From contig NZ_MEDO01000014.1 in NCBI RefSeq assembly GCF_001724815.1, positions 496,001 through 560,000 of the forward strand: 64,000 bases of DNA, given 5' to 3'. Position 1 is the first letter of the stretch. Each line of letters opens with the position of its first letter. This DNA comes from Arenimonas sp. SCN 70-307 (GTDB lineage: Bacteria; Pseudomonadota; Gammaproteobacteria; Xanthomonadales; Xanthomonadaceae). The position numbers and the translations under genes were made by a program. Positions 57,262-64,000 of the stretch are shown here, one piece after another. The notes beneath the pieces were generated by a model. That model made no database searches, had not been told where the DNA came from, and saw nothing but the letters and a program-made list of their open reading frames with translations.

Positions 57262-59054
57262 CGCTGGCGCTTGCCCTGCCCTGGCTGCTCGCGGCACTCG
57301 CCGCACTGGCGATGTGGCGCGCCTTCGTGCGCGCCCGCGCCGAAGCCTGGCCGCGCTGGCGCACGCTGGGGGTGCTGGCGCTGCAGCCGCTGCTGGCCTT
57401 GCTGCTCGGCCTCGCGCTGCTGCCGCCGCTGCGACCGGCGGCGCCGGAATCGCTGGTGCTGCTGACGGCCGGCGCGATCGCGCCGCAAACCCTGGCGCCC
57501 GGCGAGCGCCTGCTGGCGCTGCCGGAAGCCGGCGACACGGAAGGCGCCACGCGCGTGCCCGACCTGGCGACGGCGCTACGCCGTCATCCGGGCGCCCGCC
57601 AGCTGCGCGTGCTCGGCGAGGGCCTGCCTGCGCGCGATGAAGTGGCCGCGCGCACGCTGCCGATGGACTTCGAACCGGGCGCGCCGCCGACCGGGCTGGT
57701 GGCGCTTGACTGGCCCGCGCGGCTGCCGGCCGGCGCGCGTTTCGAGGTGCGCGGTCGCCTGGCTGAAGGCGAAGGCCTGCGGCTTGAGCTGCGCGACGCC
57801 GCCGGCCGTTCGCTCGCGACCACCGCGCCCGACGCGCAGGGCCGCTTCTCGCTGGCCGCCAGCGCCGGCGACCCGGGCACGATGGCCTTCGAGCTGCGCC
57901 TGCTCGGCGCCGACGAGGAGCCGCGGCAAAGACAGGCGCTGCCCTTCGAGGCCCTGCCCGGCGCGCCGCACCGGCTGTGGCTGATGTCGGGCGCGCCCAA
58001 TCCCGAGCTGCGCGCGCTGCGCCGCTGGGCACTGGACGCCGGTCTGGACCTGCACACGCAGATGGCGCTGGGCGGGGGCGTTTCGATCGGCGACGGCGCG
58101 CGCCCAGTCAACGCCGCGACGCTGGCCGAGACCGACCTGCTGCTGCTCGACGAACGCGCCTGGCGCGCGCTGGGGCCGGGCGGGCGCGCCGCGGTGGACG
58201 CGGCGGTGGCCGAGGGAATGGGCCTGCTGCTGCGCCTCACCGGTCCGCTGTCGGCGGCCGAGCGCGAGGCCCTGCGGGCGCAGGGCTTCGTGCTCGAACC
58301 CGGCGAAGGCCCGCGCGCGGTGGCGCTGCCGCCGGCGCTGTCGCCCGAAGCCAGCGTGCAGGACCCGCTGGTGCCCGTGCTCTCGCGCTGGCCCGATCGC
58401 CTCACGGCCCCCGGCGGCGGCGTGCTGCTGGCCGACGCCGCCGGCGAGCCGCTGGCCGCCTGGCAGGCGCAGGGCGCCGGACGCCGCGGCGTGTGGCTGC
58501 TGTCGGACAGCTTCCGCTGGGCGCAGGCGGGTTATCCGCAGGCGCATGCCCGGCTGTGGGCCGACGCCATCGCCACGCTGGCGCGGCCGCGGGAAACGAC
58601 GACGCTGTCGCTGCCGCCGCGCGCCTTCGCCGGCGAGCGCGCGGCGCTGTGCGGCCTGGCCCACGACGCGCGGCTGCTGTCGCCCGACGGCACCGAAACG
58701 CGGCTGCGCATCGACCCGGCCACCGGCGCCGCCCGCTGCGCCGCCGCCTGGCCGACGCAACCGGGCTGGCATCGCGTGCGCAGCGCGGGCACCGACCAGG
58801 CCTGGCCGGTGCTGGCCGCCGAGGCGATGCCCGGCGTGCGCGCGCAGGAACGCCGCGAGGCGACGCAGGAACTCGCGGCGTTTGCACCGACGCCACGCGA
58901 AGGCGACACGCCGCCGCCCGAACGCGGCCCGCGCTGGCCCTGGTGGCTGGCGTGGCTGGCCGCCGCGGCGCTGGCCTGGGCCCTCGAGCGCCGCATTCAA
59001 GAAACGGGGTCAGGTTCACTTATTTCCGGGCCCCAGGGGCCCGGGAATAAGTGA
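57258..59054 (+). CDS. Membrane protein with GATase1-like region, repeat-encoded tail
   Basis: 598 residues. Two N-terminal helices (residues 5-20 and 37-55), a long extracytoplasmic part with HRLWLMSGAPNPELRALRRW and LLLLDERAWRAL resembling glutamine-amidotransferase-like domains of BatA/VWA clusters, and a last helix (about 558-577). The final 20 residues, from RIQETGSGSL on, are encoded by the palindrome at 58999-59071, which also supplies the stop. It is the last gene of the tldD-moxR operon; ATGA overlap with the previous gene. Confidence 0.8.
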   Translation: MTLALALPWLLAALAALAMWRAFVRARAEAWPRWRTLGVLALQPLLALLLGLALLPPLRPAAPESLVLLTAGAIAPQTLAPGERLLALPEAGDTEGATRVPDLATALRRHPGARQLRVLGEGLPARDEVAARTLPMDFEPGAPPTGLVALDWPARLPAGARFEVRGRLAEGEGLRLELRDAAGRSLATTAPDAQGRFSLAASAGDPGTMAFELRLLGADEEPRQRQALPFEALPGAPHRLWLMSGAPNPELRALRRWALDAGLDLHTQMALGGGVSIGDGARPVNAATLAETDLLLLDERAWRALGPGGRAAVDAAVAEGMGLLLRLTGPLSAAEREALRAQGFVLEPGEGPRAVALPPALSPEASVQDPLVPVLSRWPDRLTAPGGGVLLADAAGEPLAAWQAQGAGRRGVWLLSDSFRWAQAGYPQAHARLWADAIATLARPRETTTLSLPPRAFAGERAALCGLAHDARLLSPDGTETRLRIDPATGAARCAAAWPTQPGWHRVRSAGTDQAWPVLAAEAMPGVRAQERREATQELAAFAPTPREGDTPPPERGPRWPWWLAWLAAAALAWALERRIQETGSGSLISGPQGPGNK

Positions 59055-59071
59055 ACCTGACCCCGTTTCTT
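58999..59071. repeat. GGGGTC-ended palindromic repeat, 36-bp arms
   Basis: Arms 58999-59034 and 59036-59071 pair almost perfectly (one G-T wobble) around a single A. The outer 25 nt equal the repeat at 8699-8752; the inner part has an added GC-rich segment. It lies between convergent operons and its end touches the HD-GYP stop codon. It is a probable two-way terminator. Confidence 0.9.
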
Positions 59072-60675
59072 TAGCGCGACAGTTCGGCGGCGAGTTCGGG
59101 CGAGACGCCGGGGATCTTCGACCAGTCGACCTCGTCGATCTGCTCGGGCGGCAGGAAGCGCCGCGCGTACTCGAGGTAGACGCGCTCGCGCAGGAACACG
59201 TCGAACAGGTCCGGGTCGACGTGGTGGTCGAGCTTCATGCGGCCGAGGATGGTGAGCGATTCGCTGAGCGTCTTGCCCGGCTTGTAGGGCCGGTCGGCGG
59301 CGGTCAGCGCCTCGAAGATGTCGGCGATGCCCATCACCCGCGCCTGCACGCTCATCTGCTCGCGCGTCAGGCCGCGCGGGTAGCCCTTGCCGTCCATGCG
59401 CTCGTGGTGGCCGCCGGCGTACTCGGGCACGTTGCGCAGGTGCTTGGGCCAGGGCAGCGCCTCGAGCATGCGGATGGTCATCACGATGTGGTGGTTGATG
59501 ATGCCGCGCTCGGCCTCGTTGAGCGTGCCGCGGCGGATGCACAGGTTCCCGAGCTCGTCGGCATCGAGGAAATCGCGCTCGGTGCCGTCCGGGCCGCGCC
59601 AGCGGTACGCGGCGATGCGCTTGAGTTCGGCGATGCGGTCGTCGCCCAGGAATTCGCCGCCGGTGTTGGCCGTGCGCACGGTTTCGCGGTCGGCCCGGAG
59701 CTGCGCGACGCGCGCTTGGTACGCCGCGGCGTCGAGCTCGCCGCGCAGGTGCGCGATCTCGGCATCGCGCAGCAGCACCTCGAAACGCGTGTCCACCAGG
59801 CCGATGCGGTCGTAGAGCGTCTGCAGCTTGGTGGCCTTGTCCACCACGTGCACCGGCGTGGTGATCTTGCCGCAGTCGTGCAGCAGGCCGGCGATCTTGA
59901 GCTCGTAGCGGTCGGCCTCGTCCATCGTGAACTCGGCCAGCGGCCCCACCGTGGTCCGGGCCACCGCGTCGGCCAGCAGGGTCGTCAGCGCCGGCACGCG
60001 CTCGCAGTGGCCGCCGGTGTAGGGCGATTTTTCGTCGATGGCGGTGTTGATCAGGTTGATCAGCGCTTCGAACAGCGTCTCGAGCTGGTCCACCAGCCGG
60101 CGGTTGTTGAGCGCGATCGCCGCCTGCGAGGCCAGCGATTCCACCAGCTGCTCGATGGCCGCGTCGAAGGGGCGGATGGCCCCGCCGCGGCCCTTGGCGT
60201 TGATCAGCTGAAGCACGCCGATGACGTGGCCGTCGTGGTCCTTCATCGGCACCGTCAGGAAGGACTGCGAGCGGTAGCCGGTGCGCGCGTCGAAGGCGCG
60301 CGTGCCGCTGAAGTCGAAACCCTCGGCGTCGTAGGCGTCGGCGATGTTCACCGTGCGGCCGGTCAGGGCTGCGTGCACCACCACCATCGAATCGTTGGCG
60401 CTGCCGTCCTCGCGGTGCATCGGGATGGCCGGGAAGGTGATGGGCTGGCCGTGGCGGCCGCCCATGAAAAAGCCCAGCGAATCGTTGCGCAGCACCTCGA
60501 AGCGCAGCGCGTCGCCCTCGACCAGGTAGAGCGTGCCGCCGTCGGCGTCGGCGAAGTCGCGCGCCGCCTCGAGGATGCGCTCGAGCAGGGTGGCCAGGTC
60601 GCGTTCGCTCGACAACGCCACGCCGATGGCGTTGAGGGTCTCGAGGCGGGCGAGGATTTCGGATTCGCTGGACAT
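59071..60675 (-). CDS. GAF/HD-GYP cyclic di-GMP phosphodiesterase
   Basis: 534 residues. The N-terminal GAF domain (20-195) has DGGTLYLVEGDALRFEVLRN and SFLTVPMKDHDGHVIGVLQL. The HD-GYP domain has the HD pair in AGLLHDCGKITTP (His266, Asp267), a long insert (275-395), INHHIVMT and HHERMDGKGYPRGL. Metal ligands and the GYP are intact, so it should hydrolyse cyclic di-GMP. It is soluble, with a GAF ligand as input. It is separate from the sigma-factor operon, whose last gene ends 80 nt upstream. Confidence 0.94.
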   Translation of the reverse strand: MSSESEILARLETLNAIGVALSSERDLATLLERILEAARDFADADGGTLYLVEGDALRFEVLRNDSLGFFMGGRHGQPITFPAIPMHREDGSANDSMVVVHAALTGRTVNIADAYDAEGFDFSGTRAFDARTGYRSQSFLTVPMKDHDGHVIGVLQLINAKGRGGAIRPFDAAIEQLVESLASQAAIALNNRRLVDQLETLFEALINLINTAIDEKSPYTGGHCERVPALTTLLADAVARTTVGPLAEFTMDEADRYELKIAGLLHDCGKITTPVHVVDKATKLQTLYDRIGLVDTRFEVLLRDAEIAHLRGELDAAAYQARVAQLRADRETVRTANTGGEFLGDDRIAELKRIAAYRWRGPDGTERDFLDADELGNLCIRRGTLNEAERGIINHHIVMTIRMLEALPWPKHLRNVPEYAGGHHERMDGKGYPRGLTREQMSVQARVMGIADIFEALTAADRPYKPGKTLSESLTILGRMKLDHHVDPDLFDVFLRERVYLEYARRFLPPEQIDEVDWSKIPGVSPELAAELSR

Positions 60676-60755
60676 GGCGGCGCACCGTGCAGGCCTGCCG
60701 CCTAAGGTGAGGCCTTGCCGGCCGCGACGCAAACCCCGGGGCCGGGCCGCTCGTC

Positions 60756-61484
60756 TCAGCGCCAGCCGTCGTCGCGCGCGGCGCGTTCGGCTTCGGCGTC
60801 GAGCGGCTCGCCCTGCAGGCGCGCGTCCACCTCGGCCAGCACCGACGGCGGCAGGTCGGCCGCGGCCTGGCGCAGGTCGCCGCCGGACACGCTGGCCTCG
60901 CCGAGCGCGGGCAGCTGCCAGTCGCCGCTGGCACTGCGGCAGGCCAGCCCGGCCAACGGCGCCTCGCCACCGCGCACGAAGCTGCGGCACCAGCGACCCT
61001 GGTCGTCGCGGAAGCTCAGGCCGATGGCCACGTCGCCCACGGGCTGCGAGGCGAGGCCCTGCTCGAGCGCACGGGCGAACTCGCCGCGCGCCACCATCTG
61101 CCCGCCCGGGCCCAGGCCCAGGGCCGGATCCTCGCGGCCCAGCAGCACGCCCAGGCCGAGGCCCAGGGCCAGCGCGGCGGCCACGCCGATCCACGCCGGC
61201 AGGCCGAAGCGCGGCGGCGCGGCGCGGCGCGCGCGCGCGTCGGCCAGCGAGGCCACGTTCGCCGCCGCCTCGGGTTCGCGCAGCAGCGCCTGCAGGGCGG
61301 CGGGCACCGGCTCGTCGAGCACCGGCGCGTACGCGTCCCGGAGCGCGCCGGCCAGCGCGCGGTGCCCGGCCAGGGCCGCCGCGAGCGCCGGATCGGCGGC
61401 AACGGCGGCTTCGACCCGCGCGGCCTCCGCGGCGTCGAGCTGGCCGTCGGCGTAGGCCATCAGGGTTCGGTCATCGATGCTCAC
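60756..61484 (-). CDS. Transmembrane anti-sigma factor
   Basis: 242 residues. It starts with GTG (MSIDDRTLMAYADGQLD), preceded by a strong GGAGG, and its start overlaps the sigma stop (GTGA). The N-terminal anti-sigma domain (1-90) has the usual DGQLDAAEAARVEAAV but no zinc HxxxCxxC set. One membrane helix lies at about 97-116, followed by a periplasmic domain with two Cys (GRWCRSFV, GLACRSAS). It should hold the ECF factor at the membrane until a periplasmic signal, perhaps through the divergent subtilase, releases it. Confidence 0.88.
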   Translation of the reverse strand: MSIDDRTLMAYADGQLDAAEAARVEAAVAADPALAAALAGHRALAGALRDAYAPVLDEPVPAALQALLREPEAAANVASLADARARRAAPPRFGLPAWIGVAAALALGLGLGVLLGREDPALGLGPGGQMVARGEFARALEQGLASQPVGDVAIGLSFRDDQGRWCRSFVRGGEAPLAGLACRSASGDWQLPALGEASVSGGDLRQAAADLPPSVLAEVDARLQGEPLDAEAERAARDDGWR

Positions 61485-61987
61485 GGGTAACCTCCTTCGG
61501 CCAGCAGGGCCTGCAGTGCCGCGCGTCCGCGCGAGAGCCGGCTGGTGAGCGTGCCCTCGGGCACGCCGAGCGCCTCGGCGGCCTCGCGGTAGGACAGGCC
61601 TTCGACCAGCACCAGGGCCACGGCGCTGCGCTGCTCCTCGGGCAGGCGGGCCATGGCCGAGCGCACGGCCAGCTGGACGTCGCGCGCCTCGGCGCTCGAT
61701 TCGCCGACGCGCTCGCCCAGTTCCTCGGGCGCGAACAGCTCGTCGCTGCGGCGCGCCGCGCGGTAGTCGTCGAGGAAGGCATTGCGCAGGATGCCGAACA
61801 CCCAGCCCTCGAGGGCGCGCGTCCGGTCCCACTGGTCGGCGCGGGCCAGCGCGCGCTCGAGCGCCTTCTGCACCAGGTCGTCGGCGTCGTCCGGGCGCGG
61901 CGCCAGCGTGCGCGCAAAGCGCCGCAAGCGCGGCAGCAGCGCGGCCAGGCCTTCTCGCAGTTCGGGCGGGGCAGACGTTCCATTCAT
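61481..61987 (-). CDS. ECF-family RNA polymerase sigma factor
   Basis: 168 residues. Region 2 has DDLVQKALERALARADQWD and WVFGILRNAFLDDYR. Region 4 has RLPEEQRSAVALVLVEGLSY, REAAEALGVPEGTLTSRLSR. It starts MNGTSAPPELREG. The ATG lies only 5 nt from the putative -10 element of the promoter at 61991-62021, so the transcript may be leaderless. It is in operon with its anti-sigma factor and divergent from a secreted subtilase that has the same promoter-like sequence. Confidence 0.93.
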   Translation of the reverse strand: MNGTSAPPELREGLAALLPRLRRFARTLAPRPDDADDLVQKALERALARADQWDRTRALEGWVFGILRNAFLDDYRAARRSDELFAPEELGERVGESSAEARDVQLAVRSAMARLPEEQRSAVALVLVEGLSYREAAEALGVPEGTLTSRLSRGRAALQALLAEGGYP

Positions 61988-61990
61988 GTC

Positions 61991-62021
61991 GGTATACGCT
62001 CGGGCGGGCCGGATCCATCCC
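61991..62021 (-). promoter_or_regulatory. ECF-type promoter, copy 1 (sigma/anti-sigma operon)
   Basis: On the minus strand this 31-nt sequence reads GGGATGGATCCG, 11 nt, then CGTATACC. It aligns without gaps to 62057-62087 and 63345-63375. CGTATA is the proposed -10; the conserved GGGATG lies 17 nt upstream as the proposed -35. It implies autoregulation of the sigma factor. Confidence 0.75.
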
Positions 62022-62056
62022 GGGGCGGCCGCCCGGCGATGCTAGCACCGCGTCGC

Positions 62057-62087
62057 GGGACGAATCCGCGCCGCCGGAACGTAGAAC
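62057..62087 (+). promoter_or_regulatory. ECF-type promoter, copy 3 (subtilase gene)
   Basis: Reads GGGACGAATCCG, 11 nt, then CGTAGAAC, with spacing identical to the other two copies. The -10-like CGTAGA ends 7 nt before the subtilase ATG, so transcription should start at or near that ATG. It faces away from copy 1, with 35 nt between their outer ends. Confidence 0.65.
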
Positions 62088-62092
62088 TCCCC

Positions 62093-63301
62093 ATGGCAAA
62101 CATGACCCACCGATTCGCCTTGCTGCTGATTGCCGTCCTCGCCAGCCCGCCGGCGGCGGCGCTGGGCCTGCCGCTGCCCGGCCTGCCGCGACCGGTGGAC
62201 GACGTGGTGCAGCCGGTGCTGGGCGACGCCACGCGACTGGCCGACGAGCGCGTGGCGCGCGTTCGCTCGCTGCTGCGCGCGCATCCGCGCGCGCTGGCGC
62301 GCGACCCGCGCGGCGAACTGGTCGTGCGCGGCGAACTGCTGGCGATCGAGCCGGGACCCGAGGCCCTGGCGGCCGCCGGGTCGCTGGGCCTGCGCGTGCG
62401 CGAACAGCGCGAACTGGCGCCGCTGGGCCTGCGCGTCGTGGTGTTCGAGGCGCCGCCGCGGCGTTCGCTGCGGCGACTGCTGCGCGGGCTTCGCGAAGCC
62501 GATCCCACGGGCCACTTCGACTACAACCACGTGTACCTCGGCGCCGGCGCGATCGATGCAGCGCCCGACGAAACCTTGCCCGCCACCGGCGGGGAAGCTG
62601 CGCGCATCGTGGGCCTGGTCGATGGCGGCGTGGATGCCGGCGTCGCCGCCGCGGACGCGCGGCGACTGCAGCGGCACGGTTGCCCGGAGGCGCCGGCCGA
62701 TCCGCACGGCAGCGCCGTGGCGCGGCTGCTGCTCGAGGAACCGCGCGTGCAGCTGCGCGCAGCCGACATCTATTGCGGGCAATCGACCGGCGGCTCGGTG
62801 CTCAGGCTGGCCGAGGCGATGGCCTGGCTGGCCAGCGAGCGCGCCACGGTGGTGAACCTGAGCCTGGTCGGGCCGGAGAACGCGCTGCTGGGGCGGCTCG
62901 TGGAATCGATGCAGGCGCGCGGGCACGTGCTGGTGGCGGCCGTCGGCAACGACGGCCCGGCGGCGGCGCCGCTTTACCCGGCGGCCTACCCGGGCGTGAT
63001 CGGCGTGGCCGCCGTGGATGCGCGCGGACGCGCACTGCCCGAGTCCGGGCGCGGTGCGCATGTCGATTTCGCGGCGCTGGGCCTGTTCGAGGCGGCCGAC
63101 GCGGCCGGCAAGCCGCGGCGCTGGCGCGGCACCTCGTTCGCCGCGCCGCGGGTGGCCCGGCGCGCCGCGCTCGCGGTGGATGCGCCGGGGCCCGATGCCT
63201 TGGCCACGGCCATGCGCACGCTCGCGGCCGAGGCCGCCGACGCCGCGCCTGCCGGCCGCGACCCGGCCACCGGCGAGGGCGTGGTCGGCCCCACGCGCTG
63301 A
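62093..63301 (+). CDS. Secreted S8 (subtilisin-like) serine protease
   Basis: 402 residues with a signal peptide ending near PPAAA. The N-terminal region (30-165) may be a propeptide. The catalytic triad is Asp177 (GLVDGGVDAG), His205 (DPHGSAVA) and Ser348 (RGTSFAAP), with the oxyanion Asn286 (AAVGNDGP). The domain is short for subtilases. ATG 62093 is used; a second ATG at 62102 would still give a signal peptide. It is divergent from the ECF sigma gene and shares its promoter motif, so it is probably regulated by that sigma factor and may cleave its anti-sigma factor. Confidence 0.9.
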   Translation: MANMTHRFALLLIAVLASPPAAALGLPLPGLPRPVDDVVQPVLGDATRLADERVARVRSLLRAHPRALARDPRGELVVRGELLAIEPGPEALAAAGSLGLRVREQRELAPLGLRVVVFEAPPRRSLRRLLRGLREADPTGHFDYNHVYLGAGAIDAAPDETLPATGGEAARIVGLVDGGVDAGVAAADARRLQRHGCPEAPADPHGSAVARLLLEEPRVQLRAADIYCGQSTGGSVLRLAEAMAWLASERATVVNLSLVGPENALLGRLVESMQARGHVLVAAVGNDGPAAAPLYPAAYPGVIGVAAVDARGRALPESGRGAHVDFAALGLFEAADAAGKPRRWRGTSFAAPRVARRAALAVDAPGPDALATAMRTLAAEAADAAPAGRDPATGEGVVGPTR

Positions 63302-63344
63302 AGCTAAGCGCTGGCTGAATGTTTCCCCGGCGCCGCGGATGCCC

Positions 63345-63375
63345 GGGATGGATCCGGCCCACCCGTTCGTAGACC
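63345..63375 (+). promoter_or_regulatory. ECF-type promoter, copy 2 (secreted low-complexity protein)
   Basis: Reads GGGATGGATCCG, 11 nt, then CGTAGACC. It agrees with copy 1 in 27 of 31 positions. Transcription from it would start near 63380, giving a leader of about 40 nt that contains the hairpin at 63376-63412. Confidence 0.75.
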
Positions 63376-63412
63376 CCTTCGAAGCCGCGGATCGTCCGCG
63401 GTGCCTCGAAGG
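63376..63412 (+). promoter_or_regulatory. Leader hairpin covering the ribosome-binding site
   Basis: CCTTCGA (63376-63382) and TCGAAGG (63406-63412) can pair, and inside them CCGCGG (63385-63390) pairs with CCGCGG (63396-63401). The purine-rich ribosome-binding sequence GAAGGAG partly lies in the outer arm. If the transcript starts near 63380, only the inner stem and part of the outer one would remain. Confidence 0.4.
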
Positions 63413-63420
63413 AGTCGACC

Positions 63421-64000
63421 ATGAATCGCAAGCTGCTCGCTTCGGCCGTTTTCGCGGCCCTGATCCTTTCCACCAACGCCTCGGCCCAGTCCCTGGTCGG
63501 CGGCGTTTCCGGCTCGGTCAACGGCGCCGTCAACGGCACCCTCAACGGCCCCGCGGGTGGCCCGGGCCTGGGCGTGCGCGACACGCTGGGCGGCAGCCGC
63601 GAGATGGTGCAGGGCTCGTTGCTCGAGCGCCGCGCCGCGGTGCGCGCCGAGCGCGAGCGCCTGCGTGCCCAGCGCGAAGCCGCCGCGGCCGGCGCCACCA
63701 GCACGCTCGGTGGCGTGACCGGCCAGGCCGGTTCGCTGGCCTCGACGGGCGGCGATGTCGCCGCCAGCGCCGCCGCGACCGTCACCGCCCAGGCCGAGGG
63801 CAGCGCCAGCGGCGGTGGCCAGGCCGGCAACCCGGCCGAGGGCCTCGCCCTGCCGTCGCTGCCGTCGGCGCCCGCCGCGCCGGGCGTGCCGCAGGCGCCT
63901 GGCGTCCCGGAACTGCCGGCCGCGCCGTCGGCTCCGTCCGCGCCGACCGCCCCGGCCCTGCCCACCGCGCCCGGCCTGCCGGCGCTGCCGACCCTGGGCG
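63421..64000 (+). CDS. Secreted low-complexity protein, C-terminus beyond right edge
   Basis: At least 193 residues; no stop before the window ends. The signal peptide (MNRKLLASAVFAALILSTNA, cleaved near ASA-Q) is followed by a Gly/Asn/Val-rich part (SVNGAVNGTLNG). A charged Arg/Glu helix (LLERRAAVRAERERLRAQ), an Ala/Gly/Ser/Thr-rich part and a Pro/Ala/Leu-rich tail (SAPSAPTAPALP) follow. No family is recognised. A promoter like that of the ECF operon precedes it, so it is probably an envelope or extracellular structural protein of that regulon. A GGAG site lies 6 nt from the ATG. Confidence 0.78.
   Translation, partial: MNRKLLASAVFAALILSTNASAQSLVGGVSGSVNGAVNGTLNGPAGGPGLGVRDTLGGSREMVQGSLLERRAAVRAERERLRAQREAAAAGATSTLGGVTGQAGSLASTGGDVAASAAATVTAQAEGSASGGGQAGNPAEGLALPSLPSAPAAPGVPQAPGVPELPAAPSAPSAPTAPALPTAPGLPALPTLG

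Follow-up and report, generated by a model that had tools for sequence, protein, structure and literature searches.

The 64,000-nucleotide stretch of Arenimonas sp. SCN 70-307 DNA analyzed here (the window) carries near its end genes for an ECF sigma factor, a probable anti-sigma factor, a divergently encoded protease and a secreted low-complexity protein. The first-pass annotation had read three matching promoter-like sequences at this locus as signs of autoregulation and a local regulon. This raises the question of which of these genes the sigma factor would transcribe, and whether the sites are promoters at all.

The sigma factor, its neighbors and three promoter-like sites

The following features were considered.

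60756..61484, minus strand: probable membrane anti-sigma factor gene, 242 aa, GTG start; named from place, weak matches and modelled layout
61481..61987, minus strand: ECF sigma factor gene, 168 aa, sigma2 and sigma4 domains (Pfam Sigma70_r2 6e-14, Sigma70_r4_2 4e-16; NCBIfam sigma70-ECF 5e-24, over its cut-off)
61993..62021, minus strand: presumed autoregulatory promoter, GGGATGGATCCG-N11-CGTATA
62040..62047, no strand assigned: TGCTAGCA element between the divergent genes; its minus strand, TGCTAGCAT, resembles an extended -10
62057..62085, plus strand: presumed protease promoter, clade-specific, GGGACGAATCCG-N11-CGTAGA
62093..63301, plus strand: S8 (subtilisin-like) serine protease gene, 402 aa (Peptidase_S8 1.8e-16; D177/H205/N286/S348)
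63345..63373, plus strand: presumed promoter of the secreted-protein gene, GGGATGGATCCG-N11-CGTAGA
63379..63420, plus strand: presumed 5' leader, 42 nt, counted from an inferred start at the 8th nt past CGTA; Shine-Dalgarno AAGGAG
63384-63402, plus strand: leader hairpin GCCGCGGA-UCG-UCCGCGGU, covarying in relatives
63421..64000, plus strand: low-complexity protein gene with a signal-peptide-like start; the full ORF of 270 aa extends past the window (L004:14421-15233)

A published account (PMC8103513) lists as general ECF traits the presence of sigma2 and sigma4 only, an adjacent anti-sigma gene, a GGA-type -35, a CGT -10 and an autoregulatory promoter. Only sigma2 and sigma4 were found in the window's sigma factor, as in ECF (Group IV) proteins (residues 16-80 and 106-158 of the 168 aa match in Pfam). 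The anti-sigma ORF overlaps the sigma stop codon by 4 nt, and its homologue adjoins the sigma gene in 15 of 19 loci compared, being missing from L014-L017 as cut there. Since all profile matches of this protein (zf-HC2 and NepR; NCBIfam anti-sigma, 3e-10) fell under the curated cut-offs, its name rests on place, weak matches and modelled layout. The modelled helix 95-114 is likely its membrane helix, and two Cys of the periplasmic domain are invariant in an alignment of seven sequences (A2). The N-terminal domain lacks the ZAS His/Cys zinc motif, with no Cys in the first 100 residues and a zf-HC2 score of 22.0 bits against a cut-off of 22.2. For the periplasmic domain (model with mean pLDDT 77.7), 0 of 503 PDB matches reached E 0.001. 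Downstream of the anti-sigma gene lies an ORF for a GAF and HD domain protein (59071-60690, minus strand; HD_5 5e-43), perhaps a cyclic-di-GMP phosphodiesterase. Near 59000-59050 a KKRGQVHLFPG-type peptide is read in ORFs of both strands, which suggests a short intergenic inverted repeat.

A direct check of the letters bore out the positions and the gapless alignment of the three promoter-like sequences, which are ungapped copies of GGGAYGRATCCG-N11-CGTAKA (61993-62021 minus, 62057-62085 and 63345-63373 plus). The first-pass annotation had proposed a genome-wide scan and had itself raised the objection that the motif could be a dispersed repeat. The exact pattern with a relaxed spacer, GGGAYGRATCCG-N10-12-CGTAKA, occurs only three times in the whole genome (2,928,465 bases, 2.93 Mb), always at this locus, and reversed-pattern controls gave 0 matches. 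When up to 3 mismatches were allowed, the looser pattern GGGAYGRAWCCG-N11-CGTAKA returned 17 matches: the 3 at this locus had no mismatch, the other 14 had 3, and no match had 1 or 2. Its reversed control gave 16 at up to 3 mismatches. These scans against reversed controls place the three-site set far beyond chance and answer the objection: the motif is confined to this locus.

Conservation of the sites in related loci

The sites were followed through 62 related sigma/protease loci (42 plus 20 from a sister family), which are relatives and not independent events. The 42 are distinct loci left after removal of duplicates (L067 and L068, the same loci as L136 and L172) and of divergent rows (L164-L166 and L079-L082, with an S8 protein at 29-35% identity); two are Burkholderiales metagenome assemblies. 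L155, which reads out of frame, and L080 were left out of protein-column counts. A protease homologue at E <= 1e-25 was present in 42 of 395 family genomes sampled, a set distinct from the 42 loci. Among 398 genomes of the order, 35 yielded sigma homologues at E <= 1e-36, and 21 of the 35 belong to another family; all but one of these 21 loci were fetched to make up the sister-family set of 20, and none was used in training.

In the first 14 loci a conserved block precedes the sigma gene, with a spacing of 23 in 14/14 though 22-24 was allowed. A weight matrix was trained on these loci at fixed spacing; identity at its columns is partly a matter of selection. Applied to 34 loci, two of which (L136 and L172) repeat training loci, it gave scores of at least 13 before sigma in 31 and scores below 0 in the divergent L164-L166. 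Downstream of the protease gene the matrix located a site with an ORF behind it in 40/42 loci, and a covariance model found site and leader in the other two, L075 (not matrix-scanned there) and L173 (where the matrix failed). Loci near to Xanthomonas sp. (L067) had low or negative scores with the matrix, and the hairpin, which is unknown to the matrix, was still at the expected place.

The exact window pattern was not found in the 40 relatives first searched; the form common to relatives is the looser GGANN-N17-CGTN. It stands before the sigma gene in 42/42 divergent sigma/protease loci and 20/20 sister-family loci, and before the gene after the protease in the same 42/42 and 20/20. Within the sister family the protease is divergent in 20/20, GGAAGG or GGATGG precedes sigma in 20/20 and GGAAGG follows the protease in 20/20, while the promoter-plus-leader model matches the leader in 18/20 (exceptions L209 and L213). 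Because these loci were found by their sigma genes, the protease beside sigma in 20/20 is not a search effect; with sigma found by its own search, the protease lay beside it or elsewhere in the genome in 8/8 and 20/20 checked.

Copies 1 and 3 in the window, the sites of the sigma and the secreted-protein genes, are identical at 25/29 bases, as might be expected if the three copies were a recent duplication of functionless DNA. The corresponding sites, however, occupy the same places with different sequences in the 62 related loci, and the genome holds no further copies at 1-2 mismatches; we strongly disfavor a duplication and consider it scarcely credible. Operators of another DNA-binding regulator, rather than sigma-specific promoters, would be a way to account for the palindrome GGATCC within two of the three window sites, but this palindrome is missing from the relatives' sigma sites, which read GGAAGAAAA-like. 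The bipartite -35/-10 layout with constant spacing and a CGT -10 also speaks against operators, as does the narrow distance to the sigma start codons: the first in-frame start codon lies 4-11 nt past CGTN in 31/42 loci, most commonly 7 or 8. We therefore rate the operator reading as very improbable and treat the sites as presumed promoters. Another sigma factor of like specificity could use them, against which stands that no second sigma homologue was found in the window's own genome at E <= 1e-15.

The remaining 11/42 sigma start codons lie farther on, one of the 11 overlapping CGTN. In the window the sigma ATG begins 7 nt after CGTA and the protease ATG 9 nt after it. With start codons only a few nucleotides past CGTA, the sigma and protease mRNAs of the window are probably leaderless. 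The TGCTAGCA element between the sigma and protease genes recurs in 19/42 loci and in 20/20 sister-family loci, and its minus strand TGCTAGCAT could serve sigma as a basal promoter of the extended -10 type. Genome copies of TGCTAGCAT number 7 against 1 in the control, with two pairs among them being overlapping palindromes; as evidence for a housekeeping promoter this is suggestive only.

The regulon first proposed is supported overall. Footprinting of the 62 loci supports autoregulation of the sigma gene and inclusion of the secreted-protein gene; inclusion of the protease is supported for the window's clade only. On the protease strand GGA(A/T/C)(G/T)-N17-CGTA was found in 5/42 loci and in 0/20 sister-family loci; its rate in base-shuffled intergenic sequences is 0.5%. 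L066, from Arenimonas donghaensis DSM 18148, covers the sigma gene, most of the anti-sigma gene, the protease gene and the first part of the output gene. The five carriers (L004, L066, L073, L074 and L167), whose protease genes begin 9 or 10 nt past CGTA, form one group in a sigma tree whose bootstrap had not settled (moderate support, 93/89). A single gain in the window's lineage is the simplest reading of this distribution.

The protease carries the S8 Asp/His/Ser triad and oxyanion Asn (D177, H205, N286 and S348, invariant in 7/7 aligned) and appears to be exported, its signal peptide, like that of the secreted protein, being judged by reading the N-terminus only. It is encoded beside sigma in every locus examined, mostly without a promoter of this type. 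Since it is always beside sigma yet mostly lacks the site, the protease more likely acts on the switch, by cleaving the anti-sigma factor, or on the secreted product than serves as mere output.

We also scanned relatives' genomes with GGAAGAAA-N14-CGTA, the majority consensus of the first loci, which gave 45 matches in 38 of 247 family genomes. Twenty-five of them have a protease homologue no more than 1.5 kb away: 17 sit upstream of it and on the other strand, 8 sit downstream of it and on its own strand, and no further arrangement occurs. These 25 represent 19 of the 28 genomes in the scanned set that carry the protease. The scan is partly circular, 11/25 of these matches coming from training genomes and 14/25 not. 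The other 20 matches are close to the reversed-pattern control total of 22.

The sigma factor might in addition drive genes with degenerate sites elsewhere, in which case the regulon would not be self-contained. The shared consensus GGANN-N17-CGTN is loose, weak model matches occur in relatives, and one relative (G069) has a further secreted paralogue preceded by a site and a hairpin leader of its own (L078:4678-4755, minus strand), by which the regulon appears to be expanded there. In the window genome, on the other hand, there are no sites at 1-2 mismatches, and at E <= 0.05 the promoter-plus-leader model picks up nothing beyond the secreted gene and a weak match at the sigma site. A wider regulon is thus a reading to which we give limited credence, and the self-contained one is preferred.

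The -35 element and the recognition helix

The first-pass annotation had set the motif apart from the usual GGAAC-type -35, which proved overstated. The conserved core in most loci is GGA-(A/T/C)-G, with GGAAG in most relatives and GGAYG in the window, followed by 17 bases and CGTA. This is an ordinary ECF layout, close to GGAAC, in which the ATCCG part is a lineage variant. An early ECF promoter definition, as given in PMC8103513, asks for AAC in the -35 and CGT in the -10. All three window sites have CGTA; AAC is absent from their -35, which reads GGATG or GGACG, and from the GGAAG of most relatives.

According to PMC6411747, M. tuberculosis SigH recognizes GGAAYA (-34 to -29) via R186, S182 and M181. 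In an alignment read by eye these residues correspond to R153, S149 and T148 of the window's sigma factor. Among 41 sigma rows, Glu144 of the -35 recognition helix occurs in exactly the 4 rows with G at the seventh base of the 29-mer of the sigma promoter (-29 on SigH numbering) and in 0/37 others. Residue 144 is the only protein column exclusive to those 4 rows, for which the tree needs two origins; the link is looser at the third promoter (4/4 vs 2/35). As a general rule a single-residue code by Glu144 was rejected: at position 144 the sister-family proteins carry Val (19) or Ala (1), although G is found in 20/20 of their sigma promoters. Residue 134 (Lys/Arg) may contribute to the drift of the -35, an effect confounded with ancestry.

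A related ECF group of the same family (L044-L050, L062 and L208) has sigma factors about 46-51% identical to that of the window and differs in reading GTVM, where visible, in place of GTLT in the -35 helix and in having a CGTC -10. An upstream GGAATAAT...CGTC site was seen in 8/9 of these loci; in the seven fetched at greater length (L083-L089) no protease match was obtained at E <= 1e-4. The group offers a ready comparison for the choice of base at -30 (Thr vs Met in the recognition helix), and the 62 natural promoter/sigma pairs are a resource for the study of ECF -35 specificity drift.

The leader of the secreted-protein gene and the proposed circuit

Between the 29-base site and the ATG of the secreted-protein gene lie 42-55 nt in the 41 sequences of alignment A1 (40 loci and one second paralogue). 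Over its 8 pairs the helix GCCGCGGA/UCCGCGGC is 85.8% paired, compared with 77.9% in shuffles and at most 53.8% in slid registers, the better control given that kinship among the sequences inflates covariation counts. An unbroken stem of at least 6 pairs is present in 30/41 sequences and a shorter or interrupted one in the other 11; the pair adjoining the loop is unpaired in 24/41. RNAalifold alone predicts 5 of the 8 pairs, 3 of them with a double change. A palindrome just downstream of a promoter could equally be a repressor site, so that the inverted repeat would act as DNA operator and not as RNA hairpin, and one of five covariation measures is not above shuffles, namely how many pairs show a double change (4 against 2.9; 126/500 shuffles as high). 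The compensatory changes, which amount to 24 doubly changed cells where shuffles give 6.4, and the G-U states also seen favor RNA, and a DNA operator is in our judgment unlikely. We retain the RNA hairpin, which is a further resource as a covarying leader structure: an Rfam search of window positions 61900-64000 gave two matches at E up to 5, neither within the leader. Sequestering of the Shine-Dalgarno sequence by the leader was considered but is not established by the predictions (median predicted unpaired probability 0.38, below 0.5 in 27/40, without a shuffle control). In some leaders a longer outer helix would need bases upstream of the inferred start.

No Pfam family matched the secreted low-complexity protein. 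Behind the conserved site and leader the protein of the third gene differs in sequence between lineages, and 39 complete products fell into 17 groups (blastp, low-complexity filter, 1e-6), a grouping that the filter makes weak evidence. An ORF reading like an outer-membrane protein comes after the third gene in L069 and L077.

From the genes and sites, their conservation, orientation and spacing, and the hairpin covariation, we infer a compact autoregulated ECF sigma regulon, and we consider the circuit highly probable as proposed. The anti-sigma factor would hold the sigma factor at the inner membrane until an envelope signal releases it, whereupon sigma-RNA polymerase would read GGAYG-N17-CGTA promoters from the start points given above. 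The sigma factor would transcribe its own operon, with positive feedback via the probably leaderless mRNA, as well as the secreted-protein gene, whose presumed short leader has a conserved hairpin close to the ribosome-binding site; in the window clade the divergent protease gene would have gained such a promoter as well. The regulon is well supported and a new member of a kind already known; its protease part is confined to a single clade. The system was found in two families of one order and in the two Burkholderiales metagenome assemblies.

Like classical ECF (Group IV) operons such as E. coli RpoE-RseA and M. tuberculosis SigH, the system has a sigma factor of sigma2 and sigma4 only, an adjacent anti-sigma gene, a GGA-type -35, a CGT -10 and a presumed autoregulatory promoter. 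It differs from such operons in the -35 core (GGAYG/GGAAG, not GGAAC), the divergent subtilisin-like protease, the one constant output gene and the probably leaderless sigma mRNA. DegS is the site-1 protease on RseA (PMC8103513), and the two cases share the linkage of a serine protease to an anti-sigma factor with a periplasmic domain. Here, unlike DegS, the protease is an S8 enzyme encoded beside sigma, and cleavage of the anti-sigma factor is hypothetical. A more far-reaching and speculative proposal, which we hold only tentatively, is an undescribed closed-loop switch. In it the neighboring protease would be site-1 protease of the anti-sigma factor or signal sensor, and the hairpin would tune translation or stability of the output mRNA; switch, promoter and leader would be fixed, the output replaced between lineages, and positive feedback through the protease confined to the window clade. 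A literature search covering titles and the starts of abstracts turned up no description that we recognised of this sigma/protease pair, which is not proof of absence. The locus offers a compact, testable ECF circuit of sigma, brake, promoter code and one constant output, with a protease apparently rewired once; given the familiar layout, its interest is modest outside sigma-factor and envelope-stress research.

Just past the window, an enzyme of the tetrapyrrole-methylase family is encoded at L004:15357-16163 (C14 560357-561163; PF00590, 3e-24), followed by a gene for a 99-aa acidic peptide at L004:16192-16491 (C14 561192-561491). We take this pair to resemble a split borosin methyltransferase and the precursor that goes with it. 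L073 also has a methylase ORF of similar kind downstream.
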